This document shows, piece by piece, positions 2,002 through 64,000 of a stretch of DNA of 64,000 nt. The notes beneath the pieces are model-generated. The model had not been told where the DNA came from and did not search any database. It was given only the letters and a program-made list of their open reading frames with translations. Both the position numbers and the translations under genes were made by a program. Location: NCBI GenBank assembly GCA_018398585.1, contig JAGTTD010000022.1:771501-835500 (forward strand), given 5' to 3'. Position 1 is the first letter of the stretch. Each line of letters opens with the position of its first letter. Origin of the DNA: Simmondsia chinensis (lineage: Eukaryota; Streptophyta; Magnoliopsida; Caryophyllales; Simmondsiaceae).

Positions 2002-3449
2002 TTAGAGAGCCCTCAAAGCAAGTTTACTAGTTGAGTGAACCCCTTTGGCTGCAACTTTTAATACTGCACGGCTCTTGTACAACCTGCAACACAACAAAGT
2101 TCATGGGAAAATTAATCAGGTGAAATAATGTTACATATTTACCACTTTTCATCACACAGAGTTAGAGATAATCACTGGGTTCCACGCACCGCTCACTTAG
2201 AAGTTTCCTTATATGAAACAGGGTAAGTAAGGACAGATCTATTGGTGGGGTCTAAGTGTTTGCTCCCAATGGCAAATTTGAGCCCTATAACCGACATTTC
2301 ATAAAGCGTAAATGCTAACGGACATCTAACATCCAATTGATGTTGATGTGTTCTACCTAATACACAATTAGTTTGGAATGGAACCTCGCATAGACCTATA
2401 TGTAGGACTTGCGTGTGCCAACTCTTTTGGCTAGGCCAAGAGGACCCCATGAAACTTCCCATGGTATGCAAGGATGTTAGGGATTTTGCAATTCTATTGT
2501 TAATCCTCCCTTCTTGTGACCATCACAGCTGGCAATTTAGAGGAGGATGCCCATTCGTATTGCATAAATTAAGTGTCCGTGAAGCAATGAATCTCAAATT
2601 GACTCACGTGTGAAGGGATTCTTCAAGCTTCAACATTCCCAATGCCCCAAGGGCTCCCGCCTAAGTAAGGGTCTGGGAGGTGGATGTACGCAGCCTTCCC
2701 CCTTCAGGGTAACACCCTAAAGGAAGGCTGTTTCCGAGAACTCCCAACCCGAGGGGTGCAACACGAGGACTTCCCAGGAGGTCACCCATCTTGGTACTAC
2801 TCTCGCCTAAGCACGCTTAACTGTTAAAGACTCACATTTAGGTCTAGTAACAAAAAAACTCCCATTGAAGTTATGACAAAAATATGTTTAACACATACAT
2901 CTAGTGGATACTCCTAATGCAAATTCGTTTGGGATGGAACACTACTGGGACTTATATGTGCAACTCATGTGCCAACTTCTTGGGCTAGGTTGGGACCCAA
3001 CAAAATTTCACAATTGTCACATGCACATCTCACATCAAATTGATTTTCAAGCGTTCTAATGAGATCAAGTTCATCAATAAGGAACTAAAGCTCAGAAAAA
3101 TTGTCACTTGTAATCTGTTTTAAACTATGGGCATGTTTGATTTTGGAGTAAAGGATGTCAGTAACTACAAGGGCAATGCGACACCCATGATTGAAAAGAT
3201 CTGCAAAAACTTTCAGATTTGTAAAGTAAATGTTTCTTGGGAGAGAGTAGTTATCCCATCAAATGTTGCAGTATGAATACAATAACAACAACAACATTCT
3301 CAGTGTCCCAAGGGCTCCGGCCGGAGCAGGGTCAGCGGGGAGAGGGGGACGTAAGTGGCCTTATCCCTTCAGGGTGCTACCTTAAAGAGAGGCTGTGTCC
3401 ACGGGCCCCCAACTCTAAAAACAAAAGGTAAAAACAAAGTACAAATGGC

Positions 3450-3480: not shown

Positions 3481-6400
3481 GCAAGACAACATTAATACAA
3501 CAACAATCCCAGTGCCTCAAGGGCTCCCGCATGTGCAGGGTTTGAGAGGGTGGAATGTACGCAGCCTTATCCCTTCAGGTGCTACCTTAAAGGGAGGCTG
3601 TGTCCGAGGCAAGACAACATGAATGGTTAACCAAAAAAATAAAATAAAATGGAGACACCTTCATACCAAATATGCCCCACATATACCAAGAATGATGCAA
3701 TCGGCTATAATGTGCAACTCTGAATAGCTTCTGAGAGCTAACAAAAGCGAGACGAGTGATACTAACCCTGCCAAAGCAAGTCCCCATGTGGCAAGAGCAT
3801 AAAACAGCTCGCCAGCATGCCATATATTTAGCATTTTCTCAAACTTGCTTGTCCCACCCAGTGATCTGGCCACAGCTGCAATAGATTATGAATCAGTTGG
3901 TGTAAGATAGTCGTCAATCAATATTGGGAAATTATCATAGAAGTATTAACACTCTGGATAGATATATGGACAATGATGGCTGAGCAAAGTAGCTCAAGAC
4001 AACATGAAATGGAAAATTGGGGATATTCAAAGATGTGCAAAGGGAAGGCATGGAATGCAACATCAAGGCTTGGTTCAGATATTTTCCTTCCAGAAAATAC
4101 TTGTCCGCGAGATATTTCCACCCAAAATTGTTTTTCTTTCAAATTTTCTTTTATCCGGTTTTGGAAATAAATTTCATTGCACAGCACTTCATGGACTTGG
4201 GGTTTAGCACACTCAAGAAGAGAATGAGGCTCGAGGCAAGTCAAGAGTGGTGGCGGGATGGAAAATGACTTCATTGTTCTTGTCAGGAATTCATTTTCTT
4301 CCATATGAGGGAAATTGTTTTCCCTTCAAAACATTCATGTAAGCAAGTACAAACAATGGCATGGAAGAGGACTTCACAAAAAAAGGATAGGACGCTGTGG
4401 TTTCAGAGTCCATGCTTATTAGATTGAGAATTTTTCTTACTCAAAGCCAAAACAATCAATGACATGAGCAGCCTTAGCTAACATAACTTACTCTTCTGCA
4501 GTTGCTCTGGAGTTAATTTCTGCGATATCAAACAAAAAATGAGTTTTGAGTACGCAGAAATATGATACACAGTTAAAAGAGGGACGTAAAAGAATCTCTA
4601 GGCGATGAAAAACCTGAGCTTTTGGATTTGATAAGATACATCTGGCAATGAAGTTGGCAACCCCATCTACCACTTCTTCCTCCCAAACAATCACATAATT
4701 CTCGTTGTCTATTCCACTTCGCTCCTCAATAATGCCAGGAACCATATCACCAGTGACCCATACCCACCAGCTTTGCTCTCCTTTATCAAGATTCACTAGG
4801 ATTTCAGCAGACTCCAAGTCAGCTCCTATATTGAAACATAAAACGAACACGTAAGACCTAAAGATACATTAATATGAAAAACATAAATATTTGGGTTATT
4901 TACACCAACGGTCCCTATATTTTTCTCATTCTACCAATTTAGTCCTTATACTTTTAAATATGTCAATTTAGTCCATTGGTGGCTGAACCATCAACAACTT
5001 AACATTAATTTTACTTTAAGGACCAAATTAACACAATATGAATTGTACTGGGACTAAATTGACATAATTAAAAGTACAATTAGTACATTGACACAATGGC
5101 AGAGTACAAGTATTTTTGGTGTAAATAACCCTAAATATTTTTACCTGCCTATCAAAAGATAATAAAAGGAAACCTGTTGGCTCTTTGAAAGGAAACTTGA
5201 CACCAGTTCCATTAAGCGATTCATCACGGAGGGAATGAAGGCGACTCAAGAAACTTTCCGAGTCAACAGTGGCTATGAGACGATCATGCAGCTGCAGATA
5301 AATACATCCGGATAAATGCAAATACAAAAACTTCCATAAAATCATGTGAATCTGTGCAGCATGGCAGTCTGCTATGGTTACATTAGTATCAGAGCATCAT
5401 CATATTCAAACTGTTGGCTGCTTACAGCAACAGAGTGATAAGAAAAATGCACACACAATGCCTGTGAATTGGAGAGATATGCTGCAGCTTACCCTTGTAC
5501 AAGTAAGCGGGGTGTCCCAACCAACCTATGCAAAGCTCGACTAATCTCAGGGTTACACACACCGACCACTCAAATGTTTTCCCACGTGCAAGGGCAAGTT
5601 GGTCCCCAAAGACTCCATGGATGGCCCCAAGGAATAGTTTGCACCAATTAATATTCGAATCCTAGGCCTAATGCTTCATGAGAAGCTAAGCCTACGTACA
5701 TTATCACATGAGGTACCCCCCAGGATATCGTAAGGAATTACATTCAAAATGACCAGCCCAAAGGATCTACACTTTACCATGTTCATATAAATCTTCAATT
5801 CTCCATACATAGGGGCCTTTATTTCATTCCTAAACCACGAAAATGTGCAGTACAAGAGTCGTAAGATAAGCATTCCATGCATTGTCATAGTGACTCGGAA
5901 AAGAAAAAGAAATACCAGAGGAATATCAGTATGCATAAGTAAATTTCATTCATAAGCATATCATCCAATCAAGTATATTCAGAAATTGAATATGCTACTT
6001 AACCATAGATCCACAGTTCTCAGTTTTAATCAAACCATTATATCACACATTATTCTATGAACTCCATAACAGTATGAGCATCATCTCCCAATTAGCCACA
6101 GAAGTCAATCATAAAAAAAATTAAAAAAAAAACCCAAAATCCAACCCAATTTTTCTCATACATAATTGGTATGTATCAAGGAACCAATTATCCAAAAAGC
6201 TTAAGGTGACAGGTCAAGACCCAAAAATGGTTCTATATCTAATACGCCCCCTCATATGCATATGCCCATTGGGTTTGAAAACAGGCTAGCTCATGCCTTG
6301 TACTTAATTATGTTAATATTAAAAGTGATGGCTACAAGAATTCGAACTTGTGACCTCTTGGTTAACATGGGACCAACTTTCCCAAAAGCTTAAGCTGATG

Positions 6401-13500: not shown

Positions 13501-16171
13501 GGAACCCGGTTATCTGGTAAACTCCGACCTATGCAACAACGCACATACTACCGGAACCAAAGATTTCTCAGTGAGAGGTTCAAGGGGGAATCGAAGTGCA
13601 AACCTTTATCCCTTCACGCGCCTCTTACAACTGAGGCAAAGTGTTGGTGGATCATAATTTATATTTTTATTTATGTTTTTAATATAAAAAATAATATAAT
13701 TTCATGATTTTGATAAGCATTTAAGAATCTTAATTAGTATAATTTATATGTAGTACTGATATGATTGCTATATCTTCAGGGTAGCCCCCCGAAGGGGGAA
13801 GGCTGCGTACATCTATCCCCCCCCCCGACCCTGCTTAGGCGGGAGCCCTTGGAAGCACTAGGTTTGTTGTTGTTGTACCGATAATATTGCTATAAGAAAA
13901 AGCACTAGAAACATATTCATCCGACGTCCTTAGATGCTTCCCCCATATTGGCCTTGTCCCGACAAAATATTCACGATAGTGTTAAATTCAGAATATTTGT
14001 TGTCATTTTCAGTCATTTTTAATTAAAGATTAAAGCGTATAATGCTTTAGATGTCCTAACAGTAACAAATATTCTCATGAATTTAACATTACCCAATATT
14101 TATTTCTCATAATTTTATTTTAGCTTATTTAATTTGTGAATCTAATAACGTATATTTAATTATATTCTAATTATCAAAAAATATTATTATCTTATAAAAT
14201 TGTTTTTTATTTTTTGACAAATAGAGAGAACGCTCTCATTACCAGCAGGTGCACACACCGAAGCGGGGCCCTAGAAAGACCGCAAGAATGGAAAAAAAAG
14301 CAAAACAAAATCGAGCTTATAAAATTGTTACTAATCCAATGCTATATTTTATAATAATTACTTTTACCACCTTAACTGGTATATAAATTAGATACCTAAA
14401 TCGAGTATATTTTGACCAAAGAGGGCACCAACACGCTGTCACCGGATCCCATGAGAACTCCGAAGTTAAGCGTGTTTGGGCAAGAGTAGTACCAGGATGG
14501 GTGACCTCCTGGGAAGTCCTCACCCTCAGGTTGGGGGTACTGGGAAACAGCCTTTCTTCATGTTAACACCCTGAAGGGGGAAGGCTGCGTACATCCTTCC
14601 CCCCAGACTCTGCGTAAGCGGGAGCCCTTGAGTTGAGGCATTGGTACGTTCCTTTTACCTAAATCGAGTATATTTAACAATTTTCAAACTAAAACGACAA
14701 ATATTTAATTAAAAAATTATTAATATAAAAATAAATACCTGAAAAGAATAGCCATAATGAAAGTAATGGCAGGAAGAACATTGATACAGGCAGAAGCAAA
14801 GGTTGCTGATGTGCTTTGTAGTCCCACATAGTATAGATTTTGATCCATCACTGGCCTGTTATTTATTTTCAGGAAAATATATAATTAATTAAATAATACA
14901 TAAATTTAAAAATATTTAAAATATTTTGTTTGTAGAAAATATATACGCTTCTTATTGCATGTAAGAGAACGAGACACTATCCTCTCTTATCGGAGCTGAT
15001 ATGTTTTAAGTCTTTCTGTCTTTACCTTTTTTTGCTAGCGAGAAATCTGATAAACCTCGTCCCATGCGGCGATCCACACGCGACAGGAGTCAGATAAGTT
15101 AAGGATTTACTAAGGGAAAGGTTCAGGGGAGGAATCGAACTCCAGACCTTTTAGTCTAAATCATGGCTCTATCCCCTCACTTACTTCTTACCACTAAGGC
15201 AAGACCCTGTAGATAAAGTATAAAATTATTCTTGAGCCTTAACTTGACAATTTAATATTTTGTCGTAATTAATTACTTGACATGTTAGCAAATTTGTTCT
15301 GACGAATAAGTCGCGAGTTTTGAAAAATCTCACTCTTAATATTAATATAATTTTAATAGAAGGTAGGAGCAAAGAGTGTAAGCCGATAAATATTTTTGAA
15401 TGTTAGAATTGAAAACTCCAAGAGGGTGGGGGCAAGAGGGTACCAACATACCGTCACCGGATCCCATTAGAACTCTGAAGTTAAGCGTGCTTGGGCAAAA
15501 GCAATACTAGGATGGGTGACCTCCCGGGGAGTCCTCACCCTTAGGTTGGGGGCACTTGAAAACAACTTCTCTTTAGGGGTAATATCCTGAAGGGGGAAGG
15601 TTGCTTAGGCGGGACCCCTTAGGGCACTGGATATATTGTATGTTGCAGAATTGAAAACACAAAAAATTTAACCAAAAAATGCAATAAAAATTTTGTATTA
15701 ATTTAATATTATTATTACAAATTCTATAAATATTAGAATCTTATATTTTAATATTTATTTTCGAAGATAACGACTAGAATCAATAGGGGATGAGAGCATA
15801 CTCGAGGAGCCCAAGCAACACAATCTTGAAAAAGACAGAAAGAGTCATCTTCGGTCTAATTTTCCTGTACAATCCAAAATATAGCTCAATCAACTCCTCC
15901 CACCAACATATGTTTACTGGAAAAACACTATATATACAATAGAATAGAGCAGAACAAACCTCTCAAAGATGAGAGCGAAGGGAGCAATTGCCAAGAAGGC
16001 AGCCACGTGGCGATAAACCGTGAGAATAAAGTGGTTCATACCACGCTTCAAACACACCATAGTAATGATATACATACCAGCAAAACCGAACTGAAGGGAG
16101 ATAATTGCCAGATACGGTTTTAACTTAGCCGAAATTTCATATATTTTTCCCAACATCGCCTTGTCTTCCAT
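10513..16171 (-). CDS. WAT1-related / nodulin MtN21-type EamA transporter, copy A
   Basis: Eight exons on the minus strand: 15960-16171, 15802-15864, 14739-14855, 12667-12907, 12076-12234, 11404-11555, 11154-11256 and 10513-10608. All junctions are GT-AG and in phase, giving 1143 bp and 380 residues, the normal length for plant drug/metabolite exporters of the WAT1/UMAMIT class. Diagnostic stretches include KPYLAIISLQFGFAGMYIIT, TVYRHVAAFLAIAPFALI, SATFASACINVLPAITF, the gene-typical GTIVTVSGAMVMTLYRGP, and GVVCSGIAFYVQGVV. Two EamA domains (about residues 18-150 and 190-325) predict ten membrane helices. Family members move amino acids or auxin across the plasma membrane or tonoplast; the substrate here cannot be read from sequence. 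Compared with copy B it departs from the family pattern in places (FMPLCMIITTALGS, LLLCGCSCWSGFL). Introns carry several copy-specific insertions. It is intact, so expression is plausible. Confidence 0.93.
10655..10952 (+). mobile_element. SMART/TRIM-like element in intron 7 of transporter A
   Basis: LTR-like copies at about 10655-10733 and 10882-10952 share 'agagtataaaa(t/c)cat' and 'tttagcttttg'-type words. The internal part has 'ggtcacgagttcgaatccca' and a purine tract (gtgtgagggtc) before the right LTR. The same element occupies intron 7 of copy B (about 30905-31205), so insertion predates the tandem duplication. Confidence 0.65.
11752..11853 (-). mobile_element. tRNA-derived SINE, post-duplication insertion
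   Basis: Direct repeats atcaatatttataatt lie at 11736-11751 and 11854-11869. On the minus strand the element begins with a tRNA-like head: A box 'tagcctagtggtgtgg', B box 'ggggttcgagcac'. It ends in poly(A). Copy B at about 31985-32005 is an empty site (ctattcataattggagaaa). It lies in intron 5 of transporter A. Confidence 0.82.
13489..13650 (-). mobile_element. tRNA-derived SINE, family L, shared by both units (A)
   Basis: It contains 'gaggaacccggttatctggt' and 'gggggaatcgaa' in plus orientation, i.e. the tail and B box of family L on the minus strand. Its counterpart is at 34366-34555 in the same place in copy B, so the insertion is older than the duplication. It lies in intron 3. Confidence 0.62.
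13773..13875 (+). mobile_element. SINE body, 5'-truncated, (TTG)n tail
   Basis: It begins in the common body (cttcagggtagcc), continues 'ggctgcgtacatct' and 'gcgggagccctt', and ends 'gtttgttgttgttg'. Diverged 19-bp direct repeats (tactgata..attgctata) lie at 13754-13772 and 13876-13894. Unit B has the empty site 'tactgataatattgct' at about 34611-34627. It inserted in transporter A after the duplication. Confidence 0.75.
14205..14315 (-). mobile_element. 5'-truncated LINE 3' end with 14-bp target duplication
   Basis: The repeat cttataaaattgtt flanks it at 14191-14204 and 14316-14329. The T-rich left end is the poly(A) of a minus-strand copy. The remainder shares 'gagagaacgctctcatta' and 'gcacacaccgaagcgggg' with other LINE 3' ends in the window (18829, 57566). 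It is absent from copy B. Confidence 0.72.
14413..14655 (+). mobile_element. 5S-headed SINE, full length, 20-bp target duplication
   Basis: Perfect direct repeats tacctaaatcgagtatattt lie at 14393-14412 and 14656-14675. Bases 14422-14520 closely follow plant 5S rRNA from 'caccggatccca' through 'gaagttaagcgtg' (A box), 'ggatggg' (intermediate element) and 'gtgacctcctgggaagtcct' (C box). The body then reads 'aaggctgcgtacatcc' and 'gcgggagcccttgag'. There is no run of four T before the last bases, so an RNA polymerase III transcript could span the element. Copy B has the uninterrupted target at about 35060-35085. It lies in intron 3 of transporter A. Confidence 0.85.
15040..15212 (-). mobile_element. 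tRNA-derived SINE, family L, copy-A specific
   Basis: On the minus strand the head reads 'ttgccttagtggtaagaag' (A box) and 'ggagttcgattcctcc' (B box). The 3' end is 'ttctcgctagc' followed by an A-rich tail. No equivalent is seen in intron 2 of copy B. Target duplications are not clear. Confidence 0.6.
15417..15646 (+). mobile_element. 5S-headed SINE with 12-bp target duplication
   Basis: The repeat agaattgaaaac lies at 15405-15416 and 15647-15658. The 5S-like head covers about 15438-15540 (caccggatcccattagaact, gttaagcgtgcttgggc, gatgggtgacctccc). The body is internally shortened (gggaaggttgcttaggcggg) and the TTG tail is degraded to 'atattgtatgttgc'. Copy B lacks it at about 35912-35935. 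It lies in intron 2. Confidence 0.8.
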
Positions 16172-16472: not shown

Positions 16473-17130
16473 GGGTTATTTATTTATGTAGGGTTCATTT
16501 ATTAGGCACTAATGCACCGAATTCTATTAGAACGCTGAAGTTAAGCATACTTGGGCGAGAATAGTACCGGGATAGGTGACCTCCTAAGAAGTCCTCGTGT
16601 TGCCAACCCTATAAAGTTGGGGGCCCTCGCAAATAGCCTCTCGGCAGGGTTACACTCTAAAGGGATAAGGCTGCGCACATTCACCCCCCCCCAGACCCCG
16701 CTTAGGCGGGAGCCCTTGAGGCACTGTGTTTGTTATTGTTGATTTGGGTTATTTACGTGAAAGGTCCTGGTACTTTACCCATTGTATCAATTTAGTCCGT
16801 ATAGTTTAAATTGTGTCAATTTAGTCTCTGTACTATTTATTTATTTCAATTTAATCCCTGGAGTAAAATTAGCATCGAATTGCGACAAAAATTTAAATGC
16901 TCGGGTGACGGGTGAGTTTAAATTGAGTTAGTGAATGAGTTTTTACCTGATCATTTGCATTTATATGTAACCAAATCATTAAAATTGCGTCACTAATTTA
17001 ACTTTAATTTCCACCATAAGACCAAATTGACACAATTTGAATTATATATGGACTAAATTGATATAATTAAAAGTACAAAGACTAAATTAACGCAAGGGGT
17101 AAAGTATAGGGACCTTTCGCGTAAATAACC
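16473..17130. mobile_element. MULE-type MITE interrupted by a 5S-headed SINE
   Basis: The element begins gggttattta at 16473 and ends gcgtaaataacc at 17130, like the intact MITE at 4893-5131. The flanks aatatattt and gatacattt match at 7 of 9 positions. A SINE (16483-16741) sits ten bases inside the left end. Neither is present at the matching site of unit B (about 37105-37130). Confidence 0.65.
16483..16741 (+). mobile_element. 5S-headed SINE, subfamily 2, in a MITE
   Basis: Direct repeats atttgggttattta lie at 16469-16482 and 16742-16755. The head (ggcactaatgcaccg, gaagttaagcatacttgggc, gtgacctcc, gtcctcgtgttgcc) follows 5S rRNA further 5' than subfamily 1. The body 'aaggctgcgcacattc' and 'gcttaggcgggagccctt' leads to the tail 'gtttgttattgttg'. 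The host MITE is itself younger than the tandem duplication. Confidence 0.85.
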
Positions 17131-18947: not shown

Positions 18948-19032
18948 AACAACAACAATCGCAGTGCCTCAAGGGCTCTCGTAAAAGCGGGGTCTAGGAG
19001 GTAGATGTACGCAGCCTTTCCCCTTCAGGGTA
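18948..19032 (-). mobile_element. SINE body fragment, minus strand
   Basis: The stretch 'aacaacaacaatcgcagtgc' is the reverse of the (TTG)n tail, followed by 'tcaagggctctcg' and 'gatgtacgcagcc' of the common body. The element stops inside the body and no 5S head is present. Confidence 0.6.
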
Positions 19033-19084
19033 TTGTATTTATGTTATATTTTTATATAAATGGACCTCTCTTCTAATATATCCT

Positions 19085-19354
19085 ATTAGAGTATAAAATC
19101 ATTTTTGGAATTTTACCCATCAGTTTAAACTTTTCTGGGACCTTCTGGGAAGTCCTTACCTTCAGTTTGGGGGCACTCGAAAACAGCCTCTCTTCAAGGG
19201 TAATACCTTAAAGGGGGAAGGCTGCATACATCCGCCCTTCCCAGACCCTGCTTAGGTGGGAGCCCTTGGGGCACTTGGTATGTTGCATTAGCTTAAATTT
19301 TTTGGGACATAGCCTCTATTTAGGGTGACACCACAAAGGCATAACGCTGCGTAC

Positions 19355-22570: not shown

Positions 22571-22578
22571 ATAAAGGA

Positions 22579-23992: not shown

Positions 23993-24019
23993 TATGCTGT
24001 CAACCTGGTCTCCCAGTTT

Positions 24020-24611: not shown

Positions 24612-24808
24612 TATTAGATTATATTCTAGAACATTCCTAGGGTTTTGTAGTTTACTCTTTTGCCCTTTGACTTATGTAACCCTAGGGGTATTTTCAGTCT
24701 TTTAGTTCTTGATGTTTGCCTATATATTGAGGCCTCCTATATACTCTTTTATTCATTCAAATATAATTATTCATAAGGCATCACAAGACTTGTGTTTTGG
24801 GTGCATCA
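24612..24808 (+). repeat. Copia 3' LTR
   Basis: It starts right after the polypurine tract with tattagattat (expected TG start changed to TA) and ends in gcatca. It contains 'tatatattgaggcctcc', a plausible TATA and start region. A SINE body has inserted at its right edge. Its 5' partner was not found. Confidence 0.65.
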
Positions 24809-24819
24809 GTGTTTCCTAA

Positions 24820-24906
24820 ACCCGGAAGAGGGAAGACTGTATATATCTACTCCCCAGACCCTGCTTATGAGGGAACCCTTTGAGGCACTGGGTTTGTTGT
24901 TGTTGT
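24820..24906 (+). mobile_element. SINE body, 5'-truncated, at the Copia LTR edge
   Basis: It reads 'agaccctgcttat', 'gaggcactgggtttgttgtt' with a TTG tail. Short direct repeats agtgtttc(c/g)taa lie at about 24808-24819 and 24907-24918. The SINE is therefore younger than the Copia insertion. Confidence 0.65.
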
Positions 24907-25109
24907 AGTGTTTCGTAATCCTGGGATTAATTATTGAGTTAAGTTTTCTTCTGCTTTTTCCTATACTTCATGATCGAGAAGAGGACTCTACATCGCTTGT
25001 AAGATTCCATGAGTAGTTGTCAGCCAATTGCCCCCATTGTTTTATGCTTACGTCAGTATTTTAGGTTAATAAATAATAAAAATTTGACGTGTAAGTTTAT
25101 TAAAAATTT

Positions 25110-29091: not shown

Positions 29092-29385
29092 TGTCAGGGA
29101 ACCATCTTTCCCAAAAACTTAAGCTGATGGGTGAAGGTCTAGGAATAGTTTTATGCTCTAACATGTCCCCTCACGCAAATGCCAATTGGGCTTGAAGTAT
29201 GGATAGTGCACAAGTCAACCTCATACCTTGTGCTTAAATTGTTTTAATATGGAAAGTGAGGGCCGTTAAGATTCGAACTTGTGACCTCTTGGTTAACAAG
29301 GCTCTGATACCATGTCAAGGAACCAAGCTTACGCTTAAGCTTAAGCTGATGAACAAAGGTTTAGGAATAGTTTTATACTCTAACA
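29092..29385 (-). mobile_element. Complete 294-bp SMART/TRIM retrotransposon
   Basis: Terminal repeats of 72-73 bp (29092-29163 and 29313-29385) both begin tgtca and end ctctaaca. The target duplication gttaa flanks it (29087-29091 and 29386-29390). On the minus strand the 5' LTR is followed by tggtatcagagc (rc of 29301-29312), the standard primer-binding site for initiator methionine tRNA. The internal part ends in a purine tract (gtgaggggaca) before the other LTR. No protein is encoded, so it depends on enzymes supplied in trans. The size is close to that reported for SMART elements. Confidence 0.88.
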
Positions 29386-29991
29386 GTTAATAATCAAGTT
29401 CATAAACAACATATGTTTACTATAATCCTGAACATACGGCAGTAAATTACATGCCTTGTTTCAGCAGAATTTCAATTACTTGCTCAGATATTTTTTATAT
29501 TCCTAATTTCATTGTCTAAGTCCTCATTAAAACAGATTAAACATAAAACAAAATGCAAATTCTATGAAATGGAACCTACAATTGGTAATCTAGGTCAATC
29601 TGTCAACAATTTTGATCAACGAACTGGAAAACACATTCATCAAACTGTTAATTTCAACTATTAAACCACAAAATAACGATCAATATATACAAGATTCTTC
29701 AGAAAATCTCAAACAAAAACAAAGAATCAATTATAAATATAAATAAAATTGAAAGACTACCTGAGATCGCGAGATTTATGTATGATAATTGAGAAGAAAT
29801 CAACGCTGATTTTGCACGAAGAAGCTCGAAGCATTCGATGAAAAGTTTGAGCTTAAGAAATCAAATTTTTGCTAATAACCGACAGATTTGGGCAAATATT
29901 AATAATTGGGCTTCAATGGGGATATATTAATAATTGGGCTACTTAAGTTGGGCCGAAATTTAAATTTAGGGCTTGTTTAAGTTGGACTATA

Positions 29992-30220
29992 AGAAGGTTC
30001 ATTTACCGGGCACTAAGGCACCGGATCCTATTAGAACTCTGAAGTTAAGCGTGTTTGGACGATAGTAGTATCAGATGGGTGACCTCTTGGGAAGTCCTCG
30101 TGTTGCCAATCCTATAAGGTTGGGGGTCCTCGAAAACAGCCTCGGTAGGGTTACACCCTGAAAGGGTAAGGCTGTGTACATCCACCCCTCCCATACTGGG
30201 TTTGTTGTTGTTGTTGTTGT
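29992..30220 (+). mobile_element. 5S-headed SINE, subfamily 2, with TTG tail and 13-bp duplication
   Basis: Exact repeats aagttggactata lie at 29979-29991 and 30221-30233. The head spans nearly the whole 5S rRNA: ggcactaaggcaccggatcc, gaagttaagcgtgtttgg (A box), gatgggtgacctcttgggaa (intermediate element and C box), gtcctcgtgttgcc. The body has 'gggtaaggctgtgtacatcc' and then an internal deletion. The tail is gtttgttgttgttgttgttgt. No T4 terminator interrupts it. It is the cleanest family member in the window. Confidence 0.88.
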
Positions 30221-30578
30221 AAGTTGGACTATAGGGTTTCTCTTATTATGAGAGGGTGCTATACAAACCCCTGTTTAGGGTTTCAACTATTTTGTACAGT
30301 GATAGAAAACACATCGACAATAAAACAATTGAGAGAGTGAATGGGTGAGTGAAAATTTCTCATGTAATGCTCTAATTTCGATCTAATAAATTTGTTTACT
30401 TCTGCTCGTGGTTTTTTCCTCTTCTTGACGGTTTTCCATGTAAATACTGTTATCTTCATTGCTCTTTCTCCTTTACTTTCTTCTTTGCTTTTCAGATTTC
30501 GATTAATATATAAATCGAATCCAAATCTTACGTATTTTCGCCTTACATGTTTCGTTTTTCCAATCAGTCGCACATACA

Positions 30579-30766: not shown

Positions 30767-33700
30767 TTATGTGGGATGCGATGTAGGCATCTTGATCACA
30801 GACATTCCAGTCAATCCATCATCATCATGAACATCACCATTATGATTTGTAATAGGCAATTCCTGTTAAATAAATAATTATTAATTAATACAGTACACAA
30901 AATAAAGTATTAGAATATAAAATCATTCATAGGTCTTCCTTCACCTATTAATTTTAGCTTTTGACAAAGTTATTTCATTGACATGGTCTCGGGGGGTTTT
31001 TTTTTTAATCAAAGGTCACGAGTTCGAATCCCAACGAGGATAACTCTAAATTTTAATCTATTTTAAATACAAGTTATAGCTGGGCCTTTGTATTATCCAC
31101 GCTTCTAATATAATGAACATGAGTGTGAGGGTCATGTTAGAGTATAAAATCATTATTGGGCCCTCATCTAGCAGCATAAGCTTTTGAGATAATTGGTTCT
31201 TAATATGTACAATAATATATGTATATTTATTTTTTTTTACAAAGGGGGCAACCCTGTCAGATTGCCCATAAATCCCCTTACCCTCGATAAAGGCGAGATT
31301 TAGTCTCAGGTCTTGGGTATCAACCCTAGAGACTTCATCAATCGAGGTTGACACCTTCAGGTACATTGATACTGCTTATAGCATAAAAATTCGAAATTCT
31401 CTTGAAATAAACAATTAGTGTACGTACCTGCACCTTTCCATTTTCTTTTGTGGGAATTTGAGGGGTGGTTTGATCCTTGGTTTTTCCCCACACCACGGTG
31501 TACAATCCGCTCACTATCACGACTGCTCCTATAATACTGCACCCCACACAGCAATCAACATCATTGAACATGTCAAGGAACCAACTATTCCTAAAATTTA
31601 AGCTGATGGATGAATGTTTGGGAATGAGTTTTATGCTCTAACAGAATATGACATAACGCAAGTACCTTCCAAGGTGAAGTTGCTCGCGTAAGATAATGGA
31701 ACCCAGAGCAGCAGTGATTATCATACAGAGAGGGCTGAAGGCTGTCACGAACACAGGTCCTCGTTCTTTATTCACCACTCCTTGCACGTAGAACGCAATT
31801 CCGGAGCAAACCACACCCTAATACAATTAAGCACCGACCATGATGTCTAGTAATTTCATTTCATGTTTTAGTTATCAAATAGTGGGTATTCAAGGTCCAT
31901 TAAGATCCCAAACAGAAAAAGTTGTTGTTTGGGGCAGTAACATCTTTTAAAAATTAGTTATATTATCAATTTACTTCTACTTATATCTCACTATTCATAA
32001 TTGGAGAAATACCAGATTATAAATCATTATACATCTATAATAAAAAGGATTACCACATATTAGCTGATATATAATTTTTTGGATAGAACAAGAATAGGGG
32101 GAATGTGAGGGAACGTACCATCAGAGGAGACACTGAGCTGATATTATAATATTAAGTGGATTATGTCATTAGGGGTGTAAACGAACCGAACGTTCAATGA
32201 ACTGCTTGTGTTCGAAATCAATTATGGCTCGTTCGTGTTCATAATTAGGGCTCGATAACGTATCGAGCCGAGTTCGAGCAGGCTCGATAAGCTTAACGAG
32301 CCGAGTTCGAACAAGGTGATGCTCGGCTCGTTAATGTTCGTGAACAGCTCAATAAGAGCTCGTTAAGGGCTCGTTAAGAACTCGTTAAAAGCTCGTTAAA
32401 AAACTCTTTAAGAGCTCGTTAAAGGCTCGTTAGCATTTAATATTAACTTCAAAATAGTTTGATAATGGCTCGATAGTAACTCAAATAACTCGGCTCGATA
32501 GGGAGCTTGACTCAATAATAAGCTCATGTTTGTTATGTGCTCGATTTCATTCGATAACCAACTCGGCTTGGCTTGATAAGGAGCTCGAATTGGTTCGATT
32601 AGCTTAACGAGCCGAGCCGAGCACAACAAAATCTTAACGAACCGAGCTCGAACAAGGGGTTGGAAAGCTTGATAAGAGCTCGACTCGAACTCGAGCTCGA
32701 TAAATCTTAACGAACCGAGTTTGAACAAGGGGATGCTCTGCTCGGCTCGGCTTGTTTACACCCCTAGTAAGATATGCTAAATCTAGTATGGACATTACTA
32801 AAAGAAACCCTATTAGTCAAACTTAATTTGGATCCCCAAAATCTCGAGAGCAATTAAGTGTAGAGAAAAATGAAAACTTACAGAATAAACAGAGGCAAGC
32901 AGGCGGGAGTCCCAGCCGAGGGCCCAAGCAGACACATTACGCTCCGTCACAAGCGAGATAACGCCGCCTTCTGCCGCGCCCATGAAGCATATCCATGCTG
33001 TCAATGACAACGCTGCTGGGTACTCCTTCAACGTGAACGACTACGCAAAAAAAATAGAATTTATAATTTATATACGAGCTTTGATCATCTAGGTATATTA
33101 CAATCTCAATTTATAAAATCCATTTTAGTGATAAAAATCAGTTTGTTTGAATATCAGAAAATATTTCAATCAAAAAAATGTTTCAAAAATTTTATTTTTT
33201 AGGTCAGAAAGACAATTTCATCATATATCTGGTACAAGTTCACGTTTGGAAAATTATGATAAAAAATATTTTCCTCTTCGCTAAGAATAATATTTTTTCC
33301 TTTCTTTTAACGGAGGAAAAATATTTTCTGTGTAAATAGTGAACACTAATTGCTACAAACTTAAGGAAAAATATACTACAAATGAGATGGAAAATTTTTT
33401 CTGCCAAATCAAAAAGTTTTGTCAGTCTGCTCTATACTCTATTTTAATGAGAGTCTTATATACGGAGTCATATTAGAAAAATTAACTTACCTGAAGAATG
33501 AAGAAACCGGACCAACAACAGCAACTGCCGAGAAGAAGAATGGTGCCAAGTATCCAATGTGGACCAGAAGAGGAGCCAGAAGCGGTACTGCCGTGGGCGA
33601 TGCTATGTGCACCGAAGAGGTTCACAATAGGGCCACGGTACAAAGTCATGACCATGGCCCCAGACACAGTGACAATGGTGCCTATTATCTTGGCTTGGCC

Positions 33701-36460
33701 TTGTATTTTTCTCACGTTCACTTTCTCCAACCTGTTTAATACGAAATTAATTTTTGAGTCGGGCCATTCATATGTTAATCATGTCCGTGAAAGCAGAAGT
33801 TGTTTATCTGTTTTTAAGTGTAAGCACAAAAATAATATTTTTCCTTTAAAATAGTAATAGCAGGAATAAAAAATTTTCAGATAAAAGTATCCTTATAAAA
33901 GACACTTTTACTCAATAAAAGCATGAGAGCGATATAGTAGTTGATATCTATTTCTCATTTCCTATAAAGTTAACACATGAATTAAATTCGTAAAAAATAC
34001 AATTTCCTATAGGAATATAATTTCTATATTAACTAAACAAGGCCTTTGTTTCTTAATTTACTTGTATTTTTTGTCATAATAATAAAGAATATTATCATAC
34101 TTTTATTAATTATATGTAATATTTGTTAATTAAAATATAATATATTAATTATATTATTGATATTTTATCACAATAGGTTTGATTTATCAAGGTAAGTACA
34201 CGTGATAAAACCCCTTTCTAAAATTAGAAAATATCTATTTAATTAAATAATTATTTTAAAAATTGTAAAGTAATAGTGGATATTCTTAAATATATGACCT
34301 CACTACACACTACCTATACATTCGAAAAAGAACCAATAATTAAAAAAAGATTCTATATATATATATATTTTCCCTAACGAAGGAACCCGGTTGTCTAGTA
34401 AACCCCAACTCATGCAGCGATCCACACATTACAAGAACCAGTTAAGTCAAGAATTTCTCAGGAAGAAGTTCAGGGGGAATCGAACTCCAAACATTTTTGG
34501 CCTAATGCAGCACTCCCTTCACTTGCCTCCTATCATTGAGGCAAGGTCCTGATGGATCATAATTTATATTTTTATTAATTTTCTAATATAAATTAAGAAT
34601 TTTAATATAGTACTGATAATATTGCTCTAAGAAAAAGTACTAGAAACATTTTCTTTTTGATAATTAAGAGGAACATAGAGAGAGTCTCTACAATAATAAT
34701 GAATCAAAATAAACGTACTACAAACATATTCATCTGATGTCCTCAGTTGGCCTCATATTGGCCTTGTTGGGAAAAAAATATTTACAACAATGTTAAATTC
34801 AGAATAATTTTTACTATTTTCAGTCATTTCCAATTAAAGGTTAGAGCATATAATACGTTAGATGTCCTGACAGTAACAAATACTGTCATGAATTTAAAAT
34901 TACCTATATTTCTCAAAATAATTTTATTTTAGCTTATCTAATTTGTGAATCTAATAACATATAATTGTATTCTAATTATCAAAATAATATTATTAGCTTA
35001 TGAAAATGTTACTATTCCAATATAATAATTACTTTTACCACCTTATCCGGTATATAAATTAGATACCTAAGTCGAGTATATTTAACAATTTTAAAACTAA
35101 AACGAAAATATTTAATAAAAAAATAAATTAAAAAAATTATTAATATAAAAAATAAATACCTGAAAAGAATAGCCAAAATGAAAGTAATGGCAGGAAGAAC
35201 ATTAATACAGGCGGCAGCAAAGGTTGCTGATGTGCTCTTTAGTCCCATATAGTATAGATTTTGATCCATCACTGGCCTGTTATTTATTACCATATTAATT
35301 AATTAGCATGAAATATATAATTATTTTACATTATTTACATAATATATAAAAAAAATATATTTTGTTTGTAGAAAGTATATTTCTTATTGCATGTAATCTA
35401 AGAGGGTACCAACAAGCAAACACCAGATCCCATTAGAACTCTAAAGTTAAGCGTGTTTGGGTGAGAGTAGTACCAAGATGGGTGACCTCCTGGGAAGTCC
35501 ACGTATTGCACCCCTCAGATTGGGGCTTCTCGTAAATAGCCTCCCTAAGGGCTACTAGGAATGTTGCTTTGCATATTTCTTATTGCGTGTCAGCAAAACT
35601 CATGTTTTTTTATAAGTAGAAAGATGGGAGAATTATCAAGAAAATACATATAATGTTTTCCAAGAAGAAAAGGCAAAAAGCGAGAATGCGAAAGAAATTC
35701 GTATATTATTTTTATGTAAAGTAAAGTATAAAATCAATCTCGAACATTTACTTAACAGTTTAATTTTTTCACGTGAATAATTTTGTGACATGTTGGCAAG
35801 GTTTTGTGGACAAATAAGTCACGAGCTCCAATTCTGAATTTCAAATAATCACATTCTTAATATTAATATAATTTTAACATAAGTTATGAGCCGCGCTTGT
35901 AAGCCAATTAATATTTTTGTATTTTAAAACACGAAAAATTTAACCAAAAAAATGCAAAAATATTAATTTAAACTAATTATAATAACATTTAGAAAAATGT
36001 TAACAAATTCTATAAATATTAAAATTTTATATCTTAATATTTATTGGAACATGAGGAGTAGGGTTGATAGGGGATGAGAGCATACTCGAGTAACCCAAGC
36101 AGCACAATCTTGAAAAAGACAGAGAGAGTCATCTTGGGTCTAATTTTCCTGTACAATCCAAAATATAACTCAATAAATTTCTCTCGCTAACATATTCTTA
36201 CTAAAAAATCACTTTACATACAATAAAACAGAACAGAACAGAACAAACCTCTCAAAGATGAGAGCAAAGGGAGCAATTGCCAAGAAAGCAACCACGTGGC
36301 GATAAACCGAGAGAATAAAATGGTTCATGCCACCTTTCAAACATACCATAGTAATGATATACATACCAGCATAGCCGAACTGAAGCGAAATAATGGCCAG
36401 ATACGGCTTTAACTTAACCAAAATTTCGTATATTTTTCGTAACATCGCCTTGTCTTCCAT
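30767..36460 (-). CDS. WAT1-related / nodulin MtN21-type EamA transporter, copy B
   Basis: Eight minus-strand exons at 36249-36460, 36086-36148, 35160-35276, 33491-33731, 32882-33040, 31676-31817 minus ten at its low end (31666-31817), 31434-31536 and 30767-30862. Exon lengths (212, 63, 117, 241, 159, 152, 103, 96 bp) are identical to copy A, giving 380 residues with no frame change. Markers include KPYLAIISLQFGYAGMYIIT, GTIVTVSGAMVMTLYRGP, LGSCCCWSGFFILQ and TAFSPLCMIITAALGSIIL. Two EamA domains and ten predicted membrane helices match the family. Where the two copies differ, this one is generally closer to the family pattern. The N-terminal exon has GG for RG at the MVCLK(G/R)GMNH loop. Substrate is unknown; amino acids or auxin-related compounds are the family precedents. 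It is intact and has its own conserved TATA and TGACGTCA upstream. Confidence 0.93.
30905..31205 (+). mobile_element. SMART/TRIM-like element in intron 7 of transporter B
   Basis: It is the duplicate of the element at 10655-10952, with 'gtattagaatataaaatcat' at the left and 'tgttagagtataaaatcatt' at the right LTR. The internal 'aaaggtcacgagttcgaatc' is conserved. It was copied with the tandem duplication, not separately inserted. Confidence 0.65.
32171..32765. mobile_element. Non-autonomous hAT-like element rich in CTCGTTAA words
   Basis: The ends aggggtgtaaac and gtttacacccct are perfect inverted repeats. The interior repeats 'gagccgag', 'gctcgttaa' and 'gctcgataa' many times. Unit A lacks it at the homologous place (about 11975). 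The 8-bp flanks do not match cleanly. Part of the same family appears at 28925-28985 and 62990-63372. Confidence 0.6.
34366..34555 (-). mobile_element. tRNA-derived SINE, family L, shared by both units (B)
   Basis: Minus-strand A box (ttgcctcaatgataggagg) and B box (ggagttcgattccccc) are well preserved, and the 3' end is 'gggttccttcgtt'. Same intron position as 13489-13650 in copy A, hence ancestral to the duplication. Confidence 0.65.
35395..35572 (+). mobile_element. 5S-headed SINE, 18-bp duplication, unit B only
   Basis: Flanks atatttcttattgc(a/g)tgt at 35377-35394 and 35573-35590 differ at one base. The head reads 'cagatcccattagaactcta', 'gttaagcgtgtttgggtg', 'gatgggtgacctcctgggaa', 'gtattgcacccct'. 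The body is cut short after 'atagcctcc' and lacks the TTG tail. Unit A holds the empty site (cttcttattgcatgtaagag at about 14948-14967). Confidence 0.82.
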
Positions 36461-37872: not shown

Positions 37873-38248
37873 AGAGTGCTAGCATATGGGTAGTTGATGT
37901 AGTGGTTTAGTATACAGGAGCATAATCTAGCTAACGTTAGTACCCCTAGGCTTATATGTCTGCTTGTTTGATTTACTTGATATGGCTGTGAGTTGTTTTA
38001 TTGTCTATAGCCATTTTATGCTTTTTATTTGCATGTTCTGTACCGTTGTTTCTTTTTTGCTCTTATGCTATTATGCCCAGATGCTTCTATACTTTAGGTT
38101 TTTATGCTTTTTAGGTTGGGGGTCCTCAGATACACCCTCCCTTTAGGGTAGCCCCTTAAAGGGGTAAGGTTACATACATCCTCCCCCACCCCCCCGACCT
38201 TCATATGCGGGAGCCCTTGAAGCACTGAGGTTGTTATCGTCATCGTCG
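37873..38248 (+). mobile_element. Chimeric SINE: unrelated head on the common TTG-type body
   Basis: Near-exact 16-bp repeats taatg(a/g)tagttcatat lie at 37857-37872 and 38249-38264. The right 130 bp is the common body (gttgggggtcctc, aaaggggtaaggtt, gcgggagcccttgaa) with tail 'ttgttatcgtcatcgtcg'. The left 240 bp (37873-38110) is neither 5S-like nor obviously tRNA-like, apart from 'gatgtagtggtttag'. Unit A has the empty site at about 18110-18128. Confidence 0.72.
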
Positions 38249-38465
38249 TAATGGTAGTTCATATTTTAAGTTCAAAAATCAAAGTGATGGTAGATGATCG
38301 AATAAAAATATTTTCTTTTCTTTTTTTTTTTTTGGTTGATATGATCCATTAAAATGGGGCACTCTGCCTTGTAATGTTATATATTGGGTCCCTCTTTTTT
38401 TTTTTTTTTTTTTTCTTTTTTAGGTTATTTGCCATCCATCTCTAAAAAGCAAAAAAATAACATTT

Positions 38466-38625
38466 TTAGTGCCACAAGGACTCCCGCCTCAACAGGGTCG
38501 GAGGGTGGATGTACACAGCCTTCCCCCTTCAAGGTACCATCCTGAAGGGAGGCTGTTTCTAAAAACCTCCAACCTGAGGGGTGCAACACGAGGACTTCCC
38601 AGGAGGTCACCCATCTTGGTACTCA
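38466..38625 (-). mobile_element. 5S-headed SINE, 5'-truncated
   Basis: On the minus strand it starts 'taccaagatgggtgacctcc' within the 5S C-box region, then 'gtcctcgtgttgcacccctc' and the body. The tail end is worn. No target duplication was identified. Confidence 0.65.
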
Positions 38626-44910: not shown

Positions 44911-45146
44911 AGGGACATACCTAGTGCCTCAAGGGCTCCCACCTATGCAAGGTCTGGAGGGGCGGATGTACGCAGTCTTCCCCCTTCAGGATGTTAACCT
45001 GAAAAGAAGCTGTTTCCCAGTGCCTCCAACCTGAGGGGTGAGGACTTCTCAGGAGGTCATCCATCCTGGTACTACACTCGCCCAAGTACGCTTAACTTCG
45101 GAGTTATAATAAAATCCGGTGACGGCGTGTTGGTGCCCTCTTTGGC
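44911..45146 (-). mobile_element. 5S-headed SINE, full length, 19-bp duplication, unit B only
   Basis: Flanks ttattaaaa(t/c)atagtataa at 44892-44910 and 45147-45165 differ at one base. On the minus strand the element starts 'agagggcaccaacacgc', 'gtcaccggat', 'gaagttaagcgtacttgggc', 'gatgacctcctgagaagtcc', then the body (gaagactgcgtacatcc) to 'gaggcactaggtatg'. Unit A at about 25600 has the empty site. Confidence 0.83.
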
Positions 45147-47726: not shown

Positions 47727-47841
47727 AAAGGAATATACCCAGTGCCTCAAGGGCTCCCATCTATGTAGGGTTTGGGGCCTTTCCCCTTCAGGATGTTAAC
47801 ATGAAAAGAGATTGTTTCTTAGTGCCCCTAACCTGAGGGTG
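47727..47841 (-). mobile_element. SINE body, truncated, with 15-bp target duplication
   Basis: Exact repeats tccatgtatcacaaa lie at 47712-47726 and 47842-47856. On the minus strand it begins 'accctcaggttaggggcact', lacking the 5S head, and ends 'gaggcactgggtatattcc'. Internal deletions are present. Confidence 0.75.
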
Positions 47842-50435: not shown

Positions 50436-50679
50436 TCTAAGAGGGTACCAACACGCAAGCATCAGATCACATTAGAACTTGGAAGTTAAGCGTGCTTGGA
50501 CGAGAGTAGTACCAAGATGAGTGACCTCCTGGAAAATCCTCGTGTTGTAACCTATGGGTCAGGGGTTCTTGACAACAGCATCTCTTCGGGATAACACTCT
50601 ATAGGGGAAAGCTACGTATATCCATGGCCCCAGTCCTTGCTTAGACGGGAGCCCTTAAGGTACTGCAAATGTTACTTGC
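50436..50679 (+). mobile_element. 5S-headed SINE, full length
   Basis: Short exact repeats tatatagta lie at 50427-50435 and 50680-50688. The head reads 'agagggtaccaacacgc', 'gaagttaagcgtgcttggac', 'gtgacctcctgg', 'gtcctcgtgttg'. The body (gctacgtatatcc, gacgggagcccttaag) is complete, but the TTG tail is reduced to 'aaatgttacttgc'. Confidence 0.78.
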
Positions 50680-59356: not shown

Positions 59357-59539
59357 AAGGAACATACACATACCCAGTGCCTCAAGGGCTCCCGTCTACG
59401 CAGGGTCGGGGGGGATGTACGCAGCCTTCCCCCTTCTGGGTGTTAACTTGAAAAGAGGCTGTTTCCCAGTGCCCCCAACCTGAGGGTGAAGACTTCCCAG
59501 GAGGTCACCCATCCTGATACTACTCTCGCCCAAGCACGC
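59357..59539 (-). mobile_element. 5S-headed SINE, 5'-truncated, 15-bp duplication, in a MITE
   Basis: Exact repeats tatactttgcctaat lie at 59342-59356 and 59540-59554. On the minus strand it starts 'agcgtgcttgggcgagagta' within the 5S head, has the C box (ggtgacctcctgggaagtc), then the body and tail end 'gcactgggtatgtgt'. The target is a MULE-type MITE beginning gggttatttact at 59319. Confidence 0.8.
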
Positions 59540-61429: not shown

Positions 61430-64000
61430 TTAAATAAGTTTCTTCTTCTGAAAGTAACTCTTCAAATGCAAGACTTGAAAAACCGACACTGCAATGCACA
61501 TACCGAGGGAAATCAAGCTGAACCACGCAACCCTTGCGTTCGTCTTCTCGCTTACTTCCCTCATGTCCACTTCCCTGCACGTTAATATGGAACGAAAACT
61601 TTTGTTAGATTCAAAAATAAATGAAGGGATTGTGATCATTGTTTATGAATAGTTGCATATTGGTATATCATCTCTAAAGAATGATGTGAGTACTGGGATA
61701 ATCATAACTCATGCACGACACGTTGATTCATAATAATTTAGGTAATTTTTTAACTTTCTAGTAGGTGATCAGGGTTTGCAGGGTATCCAATCCAACAACC
61801 ACCAAAAAAAAAAAGTTCCTGAAAGGCTTCGGCCAAAGAGGGGGTCTTGGAAGAGAGGTGAAATGTACGCAGTCTTAGCCCTACAGGATGCTACCGTAAA
61901 GGGAGGCAAGTTCAGAGGGCCCACAACCCTAAAAAAGTCAAGTAAAGTGAAGCAAAAGTAAAAATAAAAAGTCATAGGTTGAATGGGCATCGAGGAATAC
62001 AACCACCACCACCACTTTCCCACTGCCACAAAGGCTCCCGCCGAGGCAGGGTCGGCGGGCCGCGGGGAAGGTGTACACAACCTTACCCCTTCAGGGTGTT
62101 ACCCTAAAAAGAAGCTGTATCCGAGCATCGAGGAATGAAATGAAAATTGTCAAAAAGCTTTCTCACGTGTCCCCCCATTCTCTAATTTCTCTCCCCTTTC
62201 TCCCTATAAAATTCTCATAAGAATTTAGCTGAAACAAATTTCTAGCTGGGTTTCAAACCCAAATGAAAGAAGTGGGTTGAGCTAGATAACTGACAACTAG
62301 CGCAATGCTTTGTCAGATCTTTTAGTATGGATTCCTGAATCCAAGTAGCCAACTACACAGGATGCCAATGTAAAACACTAATTGTCTCAGCACTTCAAAG
62401 TGCTTGGGGGCAAAATAGTACTAGAATGGATGACCGAGACTGTCTTGGAATTTTTCATATTAGCAACTTGTAACCCTTTCCCTTCAAAAACAGTCTCTAG
62501 AGGATAGCACCCTATAGGGGTAAGTCTATGTACATCTTACCCTCTTCAAACTTTGCCTTGACGGGAGTATCTTTGAGATACTGGTTTGTTGTAGTTATTG
62601 TTGTTGTATCTCGTAACCATTTGAAAGTGGAAAAAGGCTTGATATGTAATGTAAGTATCAGTGGACACTATAGTGCCGTGATTCCTTGATTGACCATTTC
62701 TAACTCCATTTCACCGCTGTTGAGAATTCCACATACGAGTTTAGAAACAAAGTTTCATACGATAGTTGTAACAAAGAAGAATCAAATCTAAGCCTAGGGA
62801 ATTACTCCATCTAAAATAATGAAATTTCACTTGGACTAATACGTGGACCTCACGTATTGACTCATTAGGGAACTTTTTCGGTAACTTGCGGCAAGTCAGC
62901 AGTTGCTGATTGACTTCTCAATTCCCAGTACTATGAGCTTTGGAATTAACTAATTTTATAGAAGGCACAGCCATCACAAGCACTGTTCAGGAATCAGTAG
63001 CTACTGCATTGAAAGGCTCAGCTTGTTTCAAGCTTGAGCTATGTCGAGCTAACTCATTTAGCTGGGCCATCCAATCTTAAGCTTGGTAGGATAGGTGTCT
63101 CTTGGTTTTAAACTTGCCAAGATCAAACCAAATTATAGGCCAAATTTGAGCCACAATGAGCTAAGCTTCGACCAAAATGACCCTAAATAACTTTTCGAGC
63201 TAGGTCCAAGCTCAACCAAGCTAAGCCAAGCTTGAAATAACGTCAACCCAAGCTCTGGTACAATGTCTCTAGGCTCAGCAAGATTCAAGCCAAGCTCAAG
63301 CAGAGCAAATGATGGAGAGTAAAGCCTCAAACTTGATTAGCTCGGGATTGGCTTGGCTCATTCATCTACACCCCCTGGATCCTAAATATATTGAGAGCCA
63401 CCATATTAATGTTCACGAAGTGTCTCATCACTGATCGACACAAGCTTATGCCTATCAAATGCGCTACTGGGTACCAACAATACTGACATAAAATGAAGCA
63501 ACCAAGTTAGAATTAAGGAACAAGGATAAATAGAAGAGAAGGGGGGGATTCCAAAAACGCATCATCCAACTGCTGAGTAGGGCAAAACACCTCGTGTCCG
63601 AGAAGGAAAATCACCTGCTTTTTAAATAAAGTAGATTCTCATGGATAGCTTCTACAGCTCCTTCCAGTTTCCTCAGCTCAAGTTCAACACCCTGCAAGAG
63701 TTGGCGTCATTAGAATGACAAGATCTCATGAATATACTCCAAAAGAAGCAACAACCAATGGGGATGGGTAGGTTTAGTTTGCGAAAAATTTTCTTAGAGT
63801 GTTTTCCAATTTTGAATAACAAAAAAAAACAGAAAACTAAAAAAGCGCATTTTCCTAGAAAATTCTAAAAACGAGGCCATTTGAACAGAGTTTTCAAGAA
63901 AACACAGGATCTGAAAATTTTTCTCAGAAATCTAGAAAGTCTTCTTCGTGAAGTGAACATAACCTATATGTCACGTAAGTCATTGGTAGTTACCTCAATC
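61430..64000 (-). CDS. p24-delta (emp24/GOLD, TMED-type) protein, 3' part only
   Basis: Three minus-strand exons are visible: 63994-64000 (continuing right, coding ..KIE), 63615-63691 and 61430-61574, all GT-AG and in phase. The second exon gives [20 protein letters not shown], the membrane-proximal coiled coil of p24 proteins. The last exon gives [20 protein letters not shown], a single hydrophobic membrane helix ([19 protein letters not shown]), and the cytoplasmic tail ending YFQKKKLI. The dilysine-type tail is the COPI-binding retrieval signal of the delta class. Such proteins are cargo receptors cycling between ER and Golgi in COPII and COPI vesicles; plant delta members help export GPI-anchored proteins. 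The signal peptide and GOLD domain would lie beyond the right edge. The 2-kb last intron is packed with SINE bodies. Confidence 0.9.
61814..61918 (-). mobile_element. SINE body without 5S head, in p24 intron
   Basis: It carries 'gatgctaccgtaaagggagg', 'aaatgtacgcagtcttagcc' and 'ggcttcggcc' of the common body in reverse. The poly(A)-like stretch at its left end replaces the TTG tail. Confidence 0.55.
61999..62124 (-). mobile_element. SINE body without 5S head, 12-bp duplication
   Basis: Exact repeats gcatcgaggaat lie at 61987-61998 and 62125-62136. On the minus strand it starts TCGGATACAGCTTC, at the same position as the copy at 3493-3607. It ends in 'gtggtggtggtggttgta', a TGG variant of the tail. 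Confidence 0.78.
62370..62615 (+). mobile_element. 5S-headed SINE, strongly diverged, TTG tail
   Basis: The head keeps 'cttgggggcaaaatagtact' and 'aatggatgac' of the 5S region. The body has 'taggggtaagtctatgtac' and the tail is 'ttgttgtagttattgttgtt'. Target duplications have decayed, so this is probably an old insertion. Confidence 0.6.
62990..63372. mobile_element. hAT-like element rich in GAGCT words, left end worn
   Basis: The right end 'ggctcattcatctacacccc' and interior 'caagcttgag' and 'gagctaa' motifs match the family member at 32171-32765. It lies in the last intron of the p24 gene. No target duplication was identified. Confidence 0.5.

Follow-up and report, generated by a model that had tools for sequence, protein, structure and literature searches.

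Probable 5S rRNA-headed short interspersed elements in a stretch of a eudicot genome

The 64,000-nucleotide stretch of Simmondsia chinensis contig JAGTTD010000022.1 analysed here (positions 771,501 to 835,500 of the forward strand; hereafter the window) contains many copies of a dispersed repeat that we believe to be a family of short interspersed elements (SINEs) with heads derived from 5S ribosomal RNA (rRNA). An earlier interpretation made without database searches (the sequence-only reading) had counted about ten copies with a 5S-like head on a common body, and had listed six of them with their ends. The family is confirmed and 12 headed copies are recognisable, but copies of the body are more numerous, with 21 identified in the window by a profile search. 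The profile was built from 12 hand-picked copies; at E<=10 it matches the window 34 times and the reversed window not once. Of these matches, 21 are counted as copies, made up of the 12 that went into the profile plus nine further ones (E<=6.4e-15). Excluded from the 34 matches were the fragments 19288-19364 and 19393-19442, eight opposite-strand matches within counted copies and three weak matches (E 1 to 9.3).

The alignment holds 20 of the 21 copies, the degenerate copy at 61931- having been left out. By our own reading of this alignment, heads were sorted as full, truncated or missing: 12 copies have a recognisable 5S rRNA head (7 full and 5 truncated), one retains only the final 5S bases and seven consist of the body only, such that a full head is missing in 13 of the 20. 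These copies, with the target duplications that flank many of them and their assignment to subfamilies A, B1 and B2, are as follows.

29992..30219, plus strand: full-length copy, subfamily A, with a (TTG)n tail and an internal tail deletion of about 30 bases; duplications 29978-29991 / 30220-30233 (plus strand), 14 of 14
16483..16741, plus strand: full-length copy, subfamily A; duplications 16469-16482 / 16742-16755 (14 bp)
14413..14655, plus strand: full-length copy, subfamily B2; duplications 14393-14412 / 14656-14675 (20 bp); inside a WAT1-related gene
15417..15646, plus strand: full-length copy, subfamily B2, with extra 5' bases; duplications 15405-15416 / 15647-15658 (12 bp); inside the WAT1-related gene
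35395..35572, plus strand: subfamily B1, with a full head but most of the body deleted; 18-bp duplications 35377-35394 / 35573-35590 (one mismatch)
44911..45146, minus strand: full-length copy, subfamily B2; duplications 45147-45165 / 44892-44910 (19 bp, one mismatch)
50436..50679, plus strand: full-length copy, subfamily B1; borderline 9-bp duplications 50427-50435 / 50680-50688
2629..2829, minus strand: 5'-truncated, subfamily B1, the head starting near the A box; ends from homology only; no clear duplication
38444..38625, minus strand: 5'-truncated, subfamily B1; duplications 38626-38639 / 38430-38443 (one mismatch)
59357..59539, minus strand: 5'-truncated, subfamily B2; 15-bp duplications 59540-59554 / 59342-59356
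47727..47841, minus strand: 5'-truncated, starting where head and body join, with a B2-like body; duplications 47842-47856 / 47712-47726 (15 bp)
19138..19290, plus strand: 5'-truncated, subfamily B2, the head starting inside the C box; no clear duplication
62395..62607, plus strand: diverged, keeping a portion of the 5S head, with a tail rich in TTG; uncertain start; no clear duplication
3497..3607, minus strand: body-only, TTG tail; duplications 3608-3624 / 3480-3496 (one mismatch), with body homology extending to 3612 and so overlapping the duplication by 5 bases
3288..3413, minus strand: body-only, (TTG)n tail; no clear duplication
13773..13870, plus strand: body-only, TTG tail; imperfect 24-bp duplications 13749-13772 / 13871-13894 (4 mismatches); inside the WAT1-related gene
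18948..19034, minus strand: body-only, (TTG)n tail; no clear duplication
24820..24906, plus strand: body-only, (TTG)n tail; borderline 12-bp duplications 24808-24819 / 24907-24918 (one mismatch)
38110..38250, plus strand: body-only; no clear duplication
61999..62124, minus strand: body-only, (TGG)n end; 12-bp duplications 62125-62136 / 61987-61998

The identity of the head is supported by Rfam, which together with the body profile bears out the proposal of a 5S rRNA-derived head on a common body. Across the whole window, the 5S rRNA model RF00001 gave seven matches above its gathering score (E 2.3e-14 to 1.1e-4), five of which fall at places listed in the sequence-only reading. The sixth listed copy is matched at a relaxed threshold only (16488-16608, E 0.0019), as is 38578-38673 (E 0.2), for a total of nine matches in the window at E<=5. 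The highest 5S scores belong to the 35402 and 14415 copies, both of which outscore the copy at 29992. Since that copy has also lost about 30 tail bases, it is not the best preserved overall, as had been thought. Its (TTG)n tail is present as described, but such a tail is not general: TTGTTG occurs in the final 30 bases of 8 of the 20 copies, namely both members of subfamily A, five of the seven body-only copies and the copy at 62395.

These matches also bear on the simplest conventional explanation, which is that the family is an ordinary plant SINE of the Au or TS type, with a tRNA head and a chance likeness to 5S rRNA. TS and Au SINEs have tRNA heads, unlike the headed copies described here. 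The body does appear to resemble the tails of Au- and TS-type SINEs. A (TTG)n end has also been reported for TS (PMC3747384). However, 5S rRNA is recognised with E-values down to 2e-14, whereas ARAGORN finds no tRNA gene in the window and Rfam gives no tRNA match at E<=5. A tRNA-headed origin is thus contradicted for the headed copies, although it may hold for the body-only copies, whose heads are lost, and as an account of the family it is barely credible. A likeness to a tRNA B box in the bases that follow the junction is speculative.

Most of the complete heads begin close to where a 5S gene begins. The A box of a plant 5S gene starts at base 50, and in five of the seven complete copies it starts at element base 49, 50, 51, 52 and 52. 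Identity to a plant 5S reference was counted for 10 of the 12 heads, and amounts to 333 of 359 positions in the 5S control regions versus 305 of 354 at the other positions of 26-107 (Fisher p 0.005, the relatedness of the copies being ignored). At positions 1-25 the count is 76 of 166, and at 108-121 it is 66 of 105. This pattern, in which 26-107 is well kept and both ends have diverged, fits selection on a promoter before insertion rather than a functional rRNA, although the difference within 26-107 is modest. When the body consensus was folded, only eight pairs formed, and a two-sided change supports just one of them. Six heads folded as single strands gave z-scores of -1.9 to +2.0; therefore, we claim no conserved RNA structure.

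The way in which head and body are joined indicates that the two have travelled as one unit. In subfamily B1 (2629..2829 on the minus strand, 35395, 38444..38625 on the minus strand and 50436), the 5S 3' end is retained: the 5S part stops at or near the 3' end of natural 5S rRNA, and a body plus tail totalling about 120 bases follows directly. Members of subfamily B2 (14413, 15417, 19138, 44911..45146, 59357..59539 and probably 47727..47841, the last three on the minus strand) have lost about 11 bases at the 5S 3' end. Subfamily A comprises the copies at 29992 and 16483, with TTG-repeat ends. Five B2 heads have a deletion that can be read, and in each of them (C/T)ACT follows the junction; of the six A and B1 heads that are readable, not one has this sequence there (Fisher p 0.002). 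Given that head and body variants are inherited together in this way, the copies are propagating units. An alternative would be a set of independent 5S pseudogene chimeras, in which a LINE (long interspersed element) reverse transcriptase repeatedly joined 5S sequence to an existing tail and no self-propagating family ever existed. LINE-1/5S chimeric insertions are indeed known in mammals, but their 5S segments are described as typically antisense and truncated (PMC13174262). In the present family the junction is readable in 11 of the 12 headed copies, and in all 11 a sense 5S sequence enters the same body start. Furthermore, the heads of B1 and B2 have a common start sequence that is absent from the plant 5S reference. 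Both of these features, and the co-inheritance of the head deletion with the body variants, make repeated independent joining highly unlikely.

Target duplications were evaluated by comparing the best direct repeat in the flanks of each copy with those in 380 mismatched pairs, each of which combines the flanks of two different copies, using ends that were set by hand after earlier runs had revealed some of the repeats. In 12 of the 20 copies the score is equalled by only 0-4 of the 380 mismatched pairs, with repeat lengths of 12-24 bases. These twelve include all six listed copies, whose ends and 12-20 bp duplications hold as originally given, along with six 5'-truncated or body-only copies (59357..59539, 38444..38625, 47727..47841, 13773..13870, 3497..3607 and 61999..62124). 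Borderline results were obtained for 24820..24906 and 50436..50679 (15 of 380 pairs). In the first run, with ends set by the profile, 10 of the 21 copies scored at least 11, versus at most 5 of 420 mismatched pairs, and one of those ten repeats was a run of T. Duplications that flank 5'-truncated and body-only copies are a signature of target-primed reverse transcription.

The same evidence bears on whether the copies are solo long terminal repeats (LTRs) or fragments of Cassandra, an LTR retrotransposon. Cassandra generates duplications of 5 bp, whereas those of the listed copies measure 12-20 bp. The 5S sequence lies at the extreme 5' end of the unit, and truncated copies that carry duplications behave as non-LTR insertions. 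A case for Cassandra can nevertheless be made, given that it is widespread in land plants and has 5S sequence in its LTR (PMC10886601), that one exact match resembling an initiator-Met primer-binding site lies 680 bases from the copy at 29992, and that the copies at 14413 and 15417 stand in direct orientation 1 kb apart and are 86% alike over 140 bases. However, these two copies each have their own duplication (20 versus 12 bp), and therefore represent two insertions and not one LTR pair. The primer-binding motif has four matches in the window, one of them exact, and the two matches that lie nearest to copies (680 and 330 bases away) are on the opposite strand; the exact match is on the minus strand and the copy at 29992 is on the plus strand. 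No paired LTRs were present in the three regions searched, with the surroundings of 35395, 50436 and 2629 left out, and the direct repeats in those regions are SINE copies, together with two repeats, of 68 and 110 bases, that are not part of any copy. Thus, we rejected Cassandra on duplication length, direct repeats and primer-binding sites, and consider this explanation very improbable. Of the signs of Cassandra that might have overturned the sequence-only reading, 5-bp duplications, paired LTRs and an adjacent primer-binding site were absent from the window copies where we looked for them.

The 68-base direct repeat is present in three copies (29096-29385 and 31575-31642), near the sequence resembling an initiator-Met primer-binding site at 29301-29312 on the minus strand. 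The 110-base direct repeat (46727-46836 and 47248-47357) is 77% alike.

Taken together, the anatomy of the copies, their duplications and truncation, the near-fixed 5' end (five of seven) and the co-inheritance of head and body variants lead us to assign a probability of about 0.88 to the conclusion that these are 5S rRNA-headed SINEs of the SINE3 type in a eudicot, probably one of the Caryophyllales. The earlier proposal of a non-LTR origin with a 5S head is supported by the variable length of the duplications, the duplications at 5'-truncated copies, the spacing between 5' end and A box in five of seven complete copies, and the failure of those Cassandra features that were examined.

Several observations count against this conclusion or limit how far it can be extended. 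The A box lies at base 57 in the copy at 16483 and at base 63 in that at 15417, which is 7 and 13 bases further in than in a 5S gene. The minus-strand copy 44911..45146 has TTTT, a potential polymerase III stop, within its head and another in its body. The duplications of six of the 20 copies are indistinguishable from chance (at least 43 of 380 pairs), and the 5' end of the copy at 50436 relies on its borderline 9-bp duplication. No LINE was recognised in the window among 39 open reading frames of at least 100 amino acids inspected by eye, 10 of which were scanned against Pfam. None of the ten B copies ends in TTGTTG, so the copies may not all share one RTE partner. Finally, each copy diverges from the overall family consensus by 0.10-0.30, so the insertions are not recent and present activity of the window copies is unlikely.

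If these are SINEs of this type, transcription from the internal promoter in the 5S head would be carried out by RNA polymerase III with TFIIIA, starting at 5S position +1, and the tail of the transcript would be recognised by the reverse transcriptase of a LINE, most likely one of the RTE clade for the (TTG)n-ended copies. Insertion would then proceed by target-primed reverse transcription, consistent with duplications of at least 12 bp and frequent 5' truncation. The family might have originated by a switch of template: while copying the tail of a SINE or LINE, a reverse transcriptase would have jumped to a mature 5S rRNA at its 3' end, after which the chimera would have been amplified as at least three subfamilies (A, B1 and B2). 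Such a template switch is plausible because the join lies at about the 5S 3' end and is in the sense orientation. Template switching or ligation is the explanation given for sense-oriented small RNAs in mammalian LINE-1 chimeras (PMC13174262).

The choice of partner is suggested by analogy with other plant elements. Seven tabulated plant RTE LINE families end in (TTG)n or (TTGATG)n, and the tobacco TS SINE is paired with an RTE LINE (PMC3747384); because of these precedents, an RTE-clade partner is likely for subfamily A and for (TTG)n-ended copies generally. TTGTTG ends in both A copies and in five of seven body-only copies, with a TGG repeat at the end of a sixth, favour this partner. A different arrangement would have the 5S-headed SINE moved by a LINE outside the RTE clade, such as an L1 element reading a short T-rich end, or would derive the head from Cassandra. 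Several B2 copies do end in CCTTT-like sequence instead of (TTG)n, and Au-like SINEs have short T-stretch ends and a partner that is not known (PMC3747384). The 5' end of the head lies within two bases of the 5S start in five of seven copies, which fits 5S rRNA as the source but would be compatible with a Cassandra source too. We regard these variants as unlikely, while giving them more weight than any reading without a 5S-headed SINE.

Some of the body-only copies have features of their own. Those at 3497..3607 and 61999..62124 (both on the minus strand) start at nearly the same body position, TCGGA(C/T)ACAGC, and these two share differences from the headed copies with 3288..3413 (minus strand) and 38110..38250 (plus strand). 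These copies may belong to a separate family and have been truncated, or they may be ends of the partner LINE.

A WAT1-related transporter gene occupies about 11.1-16.2 kb (11100-16234) on the minus strand, and its exons, joined by hand, match EamA. The copies at 13773, 14413 and 15417 lie inside this gene, antisense to it and apparently within introns. Among the best 120 of 1534 homologues, the closest has 76% identity and named ones with 72-75% identity come from Ancistrocladus, Saponaria, Gypsophila, Spinacia, Silene, Heliosperma, Chenopodium and Amaranthus. Ancistrocladus and Saponaria belong to the Caryophyllales, as do the other genera named. On the evidence of this one gene, the host is a eudicot that probably falls in the same order without being a near relative of the species listed. 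Elsewhere in the window are frames of a Copia-type LTR retrotransposon (integrase and reverse transcriptase, 20182-24604) and a hAT-type transposase with interrupted reading frames (39923-42156).

Among known systems, the closest anatomical parallel is HaSE3 of the moth Helicoverpa armigera, an animal SINE3 element in which a 5S head is joined to the body and tail of another SINE, the tail being related to an RTE LINE that ends in trinucleotide repeats (PMC3272025). Unlike HaSE3, the present family has a plant host, and the likeness considered here is one of anatomy. Tobacco TS, with RTE-1_STu, resembles subfamily A in its (TTG)n end and has a proposed partner of the RTE clade (PMC3747384). 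Au SINEs are comparable by description, in that their body motifs appear similar and their short T-rich ends resemble those of some B2 copies. Cassandra is likewise a plant mobile element with a 5S promoter (PMC10886601), but the LTR pair and adjacent primer-binding site that distinguish it were not seen where tested. The 5S rRNA-related SINEs described for the fungus Aspergillus fumigatus provide, by description, a 5S-related head outside animals (PMC5063351).

Searches of an open-access library brought up no 5S-headed SINE from a plant among the titles and first lines of abstracts listed, a scope outside which subscription papers, Repbase or SINEBase may catalogue one. The exact pattern of the head/body junction has no match in viral and prokaryote collections, as expected for a plant repeat; this pattern matches only two places in the window, and the search is therefore insensitive. 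The B1 and B2 consensus sequences were also translated in antisense, in a search of other plants for spurious proteins that run across the junction, and gave 27 matches and 1 match. All 13 of the 28 matched proteins that were examined by eye align to the 5S part and none to the body, while the other 15 were judged by their coverage of 34-37% only, and absence of the family from other plants is not implied.

On balance, we lean slightly towards the view that no 5S-headed SINE was known from plants before these, and that they form a high-copy family of the Caryophyllales, with three or more subfamilies, in which a plant SINE/RTE tail became joined to the 3' end of 5S rRNA in an independent repeat of the route taken in the moth and the springhare. 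If true, this promoter type would have been captured by non-LTR elements in plants as well. The family would also provide a plant example of the kind of element proposed as the donor of the Cassandra 5S sequence, namely a SINE3 inserted into an LTR (PMC10886601).
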